From Pyrodictiaceae archaeon (GTDB lineage Archaea > Thermoproteota > Thermoprotei_A > Sulfolobales > Pyrodictiaceae), in assembly GCA_027036135.1 (NCBI GenBank), contig JALVSY010000030.1, forward strand, positions 124,001-188,000: a DNA stretch of 64,000 bases. Reading direction: 5' to 3'. Of this stretch, positions 15,062-16,150 are shown in pieces (positions within the stretch are counted from its first letter, which is position 1; each line of letters begins with the position of its first letter). A program made the translations under genes and the position numbers. The notes beneath the pieces were generated by a model, which worked only from the letters and a program-made list of their open reading frames with translations, was not told the origin of the DNA and did not search any database.

Positions 15062-15163
15062 TTTAGATATTTGTTCGCCGCGGGGAAACCACTATTACTC
15101 CAAACAGCGTCCTATGCCCTATCATGGAACCTTCTCCTCACTACTCCTTCGAGGTGACCCTAT

Positions 15164-16150
15164 ATTTCGCGCCTACCTAGACCCAGCTCTAGACAAGAAT
15201 TACTGGAATCTATTGATAAGCTTAGGTACTTAGTAGGAGCGACACCTCTAAAGTGTTTTAGTCTCGGCAGGTACAAGTTATGCGTTAAGCTGGAGTATGT
15301 GAACCCTACTGGTAGCCATAAGGATAGAATAGCTCTCTACATGGTGAAGAAGGCCGTAGAGGAGGGTGCTCTTGGCCCAGGTGACTGTGTTGCTGAGATA
15401 AGTAGCGGGAATACTGCTACCTCGGTTGCATGGGTTGCTTGGCGGCTTGGTCTCCGCGCAGTACTCTTTGTCGAGAAGCATGCATCTATGCTAAAGAAGG
15501 ATTTAATTAGAAGTCTTGGAGGAGAGCTTATCGAGATAAGCGATGAGGGTATGGATAGGGCTGCTGCCCGTGACAAAGCCGTTGAGATGGGGTGCTTCCT
15601 ACTAGACCAGATGTCTAACGATGCCAACCACTTAGCCCACTACGAGACCACAGCCCTCGAGATACTGGAGGCGACTCAGAAACGGGTAGACGCGTTTGTA
15701 ATGGGTGTCGGTACTGCTGGTACCGTTACGGGTGTTGGTAGAAGACTTAAGGAAACCCTTGGCTCAACCTTGGTGGTCTCTGTATCGCCGAAGGATTCTC
15801 CAATAGTTGGTGGAAGCGGCAGGGGAGAAACAATTGAGGGACTCACCGTTAGTATCGTGCCGGAGCTCTATAAGCGCTACCAAAAATATGTTGATAAAGC
15901 TATAGGGGTAGAGCCGGAGAAGGCGCTTGATGGGATAAGCGCATTAGCGACCGCTACCGGGATCCTAGGAGGACCATCTACTGGAGCGGCCTTCGTTGCC
16001 GCTACAAAGCTTGTAGAGGAGGGGGCCATCGATAAGGGCTCAACGATAGTCATAGTTGCTGCCGATAGGTTGATAAGGTATCCATCAGTGCTCGAGAAAC
16101 TTCACCTAGGGATTCATGGGACCGAGCTGCTAAAAACCTGGCAGGAGTAA
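15164..16150 (+). CDS. Cysteine synthase-family PLP enzyme, apparent AUU start
   Basis: This fold-type II PLP enzyme has the lysine motif NPTGSHKDR, the phosphate-binding region [11 protein letters not shown] and [16 protein letters not shown]. The family makes cysteine from O-acetyl/phosphoserine or carries out related beta-replacements. The first standard start (GTG 15299) lies directly before NPTGS and would delete the conserved first strand. The same frame encodes [15 protein letters not shown] and KLCVKLEY upstream, so the real N-terminus is further left, but no ATG, GTG or TTG exists back to a TGA at 15155-15157. ATT at 15164 follows a strong GAGGTGA (15151-15157) by six bases and gives [14 protein letters not shown], 328 residues in total. 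A sequencing error in the start codon is the main alternative. Confidence 0.8.

Follow-up and report, generated by a model that had tools for sequence, protein, structure and literature searches.

Sequence comparisons strongly support AUU at position 15164 as the start codon of a cysteine-synthase-like gene in a hyperthermophilic Pyrodictiaceae archaeon. The gene lies in a stretch of 64,000 nucleotides of contig JALVSY010000030.1 (hereafter, the window). It is very probable that this AUU is placed by a Shine-Dalgarno (SD) sequence, is read by the normal initiator tRNA and represents one case of a habit of the genus, in which some genes start at near-cognate codons.

The 5′ end of the cysteine-synthase-like gene

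The genes for SRP19, the cysteine-synthase-like protein and CTP synthase are consecutive in the window (Table 1). The product of the middle gene scored 220 bits against PF00291 (cut-off 35) and therefore belongs to the PALP family, which is PLP-dependent and has the cysteine synthase fold. Further, it matched cysteine synthases in the PDB, for example 8srt, which aligned to query residues 16-307. The NCBIfam equivalog cut-offs were not reached for cysK (195.7 bits vs 350.95) or for cysM (159.8 bits vs 394.2).

An in-frame stop codon (TGA, 15155-15157) sits within the SD sequence GAGGTGA, which is separated from ATT by the spacer CCCTAT (15158-15163), and the codons after the TGA read CCC TAT ATT TCG CGC. 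The initial annotation had placed ATT exactly six bases after GAGGTGA and had stated that no ATG, GTG or TTG exists in frame back to a stop. Both the coordinates and the spacing proved exact when rechecked, and in the gene frame (15158-16150) the three standard codons are absent from the stop at 15155 up to GTG at 15299. The further claim that a conserved N-terminal part precedes the first standard start agrees with the alignment of solved cysteine synthases to residues 16-45.

The 16S rRNA tail GGATCACCTC, taken from the complete genome of the same genus (G004), is a normal tail and is complementary to GAGGTGATCC; the SD sequence is therefore a perfect 7-mer. The spacing at ATT matches that of the canonical genes of the organism: GGTG most often stands 7 nt before the start codon in these (29 of 113), a distance identical to that of ATT 15164.

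Within the conserved block that follows the SRP19 gene (15056-15098), a TATA-like TTTAGATATTTG lies approximately 25 nt upstream of CACTATTAC. The block is probably a promoter with the transcription start, and possibly a leader peptide; after the SRP19 stop it carries a short conserved reading frame, TTG-F-A/V-A-G-K-P-L-L.

Table 1. Features of the locus, aIF1 and GluRS (window positions unless a contig is named)
Feature	Position	Strand	Basis
SRP19 gene, upstream neighbor	14747..15061	+	Pfam SRP19 1.8e-20; NCBIfam PRK00754 4.9e-37; ordinary ATG start
Conserved 5′ block, probable promoter	15056..15098	+	Largely invariant in four species; putative function
Shine-Dalgarno GAGGTGA	15151..15157	+	Anti-SD tail in G004; identical in four species
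ATT, strongly supported start codon	15164..15166	+	Conserved in G000-G003
Cysteine-synthase-like PLP enzyme, 328 aa from ATT	15164..16150	+	PF00291 PALP 4.3e-65
GTG, first standard in-frame codon, rejected as start	15299..15301	+	Within a protein stretch in the 85%-identical orthologue
CTP synthase (pyrG), downstream neighbor	16171..17796	+	PF06418 3.3e-126; ATG start
aIF1 (SUI1 family), fidelity factor	39673..39984	-	PF01253 match; ATG start at 39984
K-H-R-R codons of aIF1 loop 1, in place of K/R-Y/F-G-K/R	39871..39882	-	Sequence comparison
GluRS, apparent AUA start in all five genomes of the genus	C16:176449-178248 (genome of the window)	-	Comparison

Conservation of ATT among species of the genus

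We compared five genomes of the genus, namely that of the window (G000) and G001 to G004, whose enzymes are 96% (G001), 93% (G002), 85% (G003) and 74% (G004) identical to that of G000. The four genomes with ATT (G000-G003) are all draft assemblies from at least two samples, with G003 coming from a different metagenome sample, and three of the four are close relatives. G001, G002 and G003 possess the same GAGGTGA with the in-frame TGA, followed by six bases and then ATT TCG CG. The arrangement SD-N6-ATT-TCG-CG with the TGA, and without a standard start, is common to the four species. Further, the block CTCCTTCGAGGTGACCC-N2-TATTTCGCG is invariant in all four, while the leader just 5′ of the SD sequence is mostly hardly alignable in G003; because of this difference, the signal exceeds that expected by chance.

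When the codons of G000 and G002 were compared from ATT onward, 6, 1 and 14 changes were detected at positions 1, 2 and 3, respectively, with 15 synonymous vs 5 non-synonymous codons. In the same comparison, third-position-biased change was absent from the region upstream of ATT.

G004 reads GGAGGTG-GTTCTC-ATT-TCG, in which ATT-TCG is 6 nt after GGAGGTG. The start in this species is ambiguous because an in-frame GTG is present as part of the SD sequence itself. In sister genera, TTG or GTG starts are available in the cysteine-synthase-like gene. The initial annotation had named the same codon in sister species as a check on AUU: the codon is ATT in G000-G003 and a standard codon in none of them, with G004 ambiguous. 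Conservation in four species, together with the exclusion of the alternatives considered below, thus upholds its proposal that AUU is the start of this cysteine synthase homologue.

Near-cognate starts in other genes of the genus

We scanned 2.05 Mb of the genome to which the window belongs for ORFs in which a codon located 5′ of all standard starts is preceded, at the customary distance, by a strong SD sequence. Near-cognate codons made up 6 of the 11 sites with an SD sequence at 6-8 nt and a positive coding score, vs a background of 15%, an enrichment that concerns few sites and is to be read beside a control motif that gave 5 near-cognate hits. A further near-cognate case was not found in a 400 kb sample of G004.

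As judged from the alignments, conserved near-cognate starts recur in the genus at similar SD spacing in the genes for GluRS, a membrane protein and a PIN-domain protein. An upstream GluRS start is ruled out in G004 because an in-frame TGA lies two codons before ATA. The GluRS site reads AGT ATA TCA GGA in G000, AAC GTG TCA GGA in G006 and TTG in G005, the last two being genomes of sister genera. For the membrane protein (262 aa), G000 reads ATA and G004 reads ATC, with the same SD spacing; for the PIN-domain protein, two species read CTG AGC ATA and the homologues TTG AGC AT. Comparison of these start sites thus indicates exchange with GUG or UUG in the genes for GluRS and the PIN protein, and of AUA with AUC in that for the membrane protein. 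The view of AUU as an isolated rarity, which the initial annotation had taken, does not stand, since the same genus appears to use AUA, AUC and CUG on other genes, including that for GluRS.

Additional candidates in G000, with ACG (a B12-type radical-SAM gene), CTG (a PDDEXK gene) and ATA (a DUF5678 gene), are unproven, as informative relatives are too few. A paralogue of the CUG-start PIN protein in the same genome (C7:1234968-1235375) has an internal TGA after LEGQ and is possibly a pseudogene. At C16:260765 on the plus strand of G000, an ORF encodes a CxxxCxxC-like motif (CNFYCPWC) far 5′ of its first standard start, codon 94; it resembles a radical-SAM gene that has a frameshift or another unusual start.

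In the IleRS gene (C7:627478-630450 of G000, minus strand), GGTG is followed seven bases later by TTA in G000, G001, G004, G005 and G010; in G009 the TTA has a comparable position. A standard start near the IleRS N-terminus was absent in G000, G001, G005, G009 and G010, and G004 possesses a GTG two codons after TTA; order-level relatives have an in-frame GTG three codons upstream. Apparently, UUA initiation or a +1 event has been conserved over five genera, with UUA as the simplest reading, although this case is less certain.

Proposed mechanism and alternative explanations

We propose that the perfect SD sequence GAGGUGA would position the 30S subunit with AUU in the P site at the usual spacing of the lineage. 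The normal initiator Met-tRNAi would then read AUU as methionine, with SD pairing and placement compensating for the third-position mismatch. The genus would start some genes at near-cognates with a middle U (AUU, AUA, AUC, CUG) behind strong, well-spaced SD sequences, and may tolerate these codons because its aIF1, with H-R in loop 1, discriminates less.

Two variants were rejected. Predicted structures differ among the four species, which does not fit a hairpin sequestering the SD sequence, and the anticodon loop of the initiator tRNA (CTCATAA) is normal.

The AUU start may in addition be regulatory, as the initial annotation had implied in linking rare AUU starts such as that of infC to initiation fidelity, with its low efficiency or a dependence on the level of aIF1 controlling the enzyme. 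AUU has been kept across the genus though a single change would give AUG, and regulated unusual starts exist in bacteria (AUU of infC; GTC of Streptomyces sigR, according to its authors, PMC5472188). However, near-cognates are also found on unrelated genes (GluRS, PIN and membrane proteins), which points to tolerance, and we consider a regulatory role an unlikely, though not negligible, addition. Autoregulation of the infC type requires that the product be a fidelity factor; here the product is a PALP enzyme, and the aIF1 gene of this organism itself starts at ATG. An indirect connection with fidelity is possible, since aIF1 of the genus is changed at a functional residue.

Apart from regulation, the rival accounts of the 5′ end are all very improbable. 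Translation might begin out of frame at an ATG further 5′ and shift into the gene: ATG 15124 opens an 18-codon ORF across the SD sequence, and each of the four species has a second open frame that overlaps. However, G003 does not possess that ATG, and the ATG 15124 frame is closed there by stops just upstream; further, no slippery heptamer is present and the starts of the second overlapping frame differ between species, making a frameshift highly unlikely. An archaeal intron that joins a start-bearing upstream exon to the gene has equally little probability. The short conserved frame in block 15056-15098 could supply such an exon, but a scan for bulge-helix-bulge motifs gave few hits, located in different places in different species with none conserved, and the ideally spaced SD sequence would be a coincidence.

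GTG 15299, as the first standard codon, opens the ORF that a gene finder would list (15299-16150, 283 aa). A start at this codon has only the slightest probability: the codon is replaced by GTA in G003, the 45 codons upstream of it evolve as coding sequence, and residues 16-45, to which solved cysteine synthases align, would be deleted. A standard start masked by a sequencing or assembly error, or a decaying gene, is just as improbable; the genome of the window and its three relatives are draft assemblies, but four assemblies, which derive from at least two samples, carry the identical ATT, and the ORF is unbroken, most of its changes being synonymous. Read-through of TGA 15155 can likewise be set aside, since the upstream in-frame TTG or ATG that it would use is present in G000 and G003, whereas none of ATG, GTG and TTG occurs in frame between the preceding stop and the TGA in G001 or G002.

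A genus-specific change in aIF1

Tolerance of near-cognate starts may be related to aIF1. Loop 1 of this factor contains H-R in all five genomes of the genus, vs Y or F followed by G in the other 15 compared. Of 229 genomes of the class, exactly five, those of the genus, encode the motif HRREVTII and the other 224 lack it; variants with altered flanking residues would escape the search pattern used. In an alignment, the replaced tyrosine corresponded to Y32 of Pyrococcus abyssi aIF1, the change being Y32-G33 to H-R.

In P. abyssi, Y32A abolished the mRNA-aIF1 synergy on the 30S subunit (PMC6237735). In Sulfolobus, aIF1 is described as helping to discriminate against start codons outside the canonical set (PMC8211752, citing Hasenohrl et al.). 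The P. abyssi loop-1 mutants resemble the present genus in the replacement of the same residue; in contrast, they were made in the laboratory and were assayed for 30S binding, not for start-codon choice. The change at a functional residue suggests relaxed start-codon checking, as a correlation on one branch. We tentatively suggest, as a possibility short of an even chance, that this is an archaeal genus with loosened start selection, in which the change of aIF1 Y32-G33 to H-R would permit SD-guided AUU, AUA, AUC and CUG starts, even on an essential gene like that for GluRS. aIF1 cannot explain everything, because the apparent UUA start of IleRS is also found in genera with normal aIF1.

Discussion

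In bacteria, infC, which encodes IF3, and pcnB are known to start at AUU. These genes resemble the present one in having AUU behind a good SD sequence; however, infC is bacterial, encodes a fidelity factor and regulates itself, whereas the present gene is archaeal and encodes a metabolic enzyme. Streptomyces sigR starts at GTC and is repressed by IF3, as its authors report (PMC5472188). Like the present gene, sigR does not encode a translation factor and has a start codon outside the standard set; it differs in being bacterial, in its GTC codon and in the reported IF3-mediated repression.

Among related archaea, TTG accounts for 52% of starts in A. pernix, and GTG and TTG account for 30% and 25% in P. 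delaneyi (PMC5911459, PMC5556600). Aeropyrum and Pyrodictium thus share a relaxed choice of the first letter; in contrast to the genus studied here, all of their codons are NUG, and AUU, AUA, AUC or CUG starts are not reported there (PMC5911459, PMC5556600). AUG, GUG and UUG are the archaeal start codons named in a review (PMC7531240). An archaeal AUU, AUA, AUC or CUG start was not found in the literature searched, in which subscription papers were sparsely covered.

Conserved AUU, AUA, AUC and CUG starts would lead gene finders to truncate or misplace such genes, that for GluRS included. The genus may serve as a natural system for how aIF1, which is common to archaea and eukaryotes, defines the start codon. 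If loosened selection is true, it would represent a natural relaxed-fidelity variant of the archaeal and eukaryotic initiation machinery.
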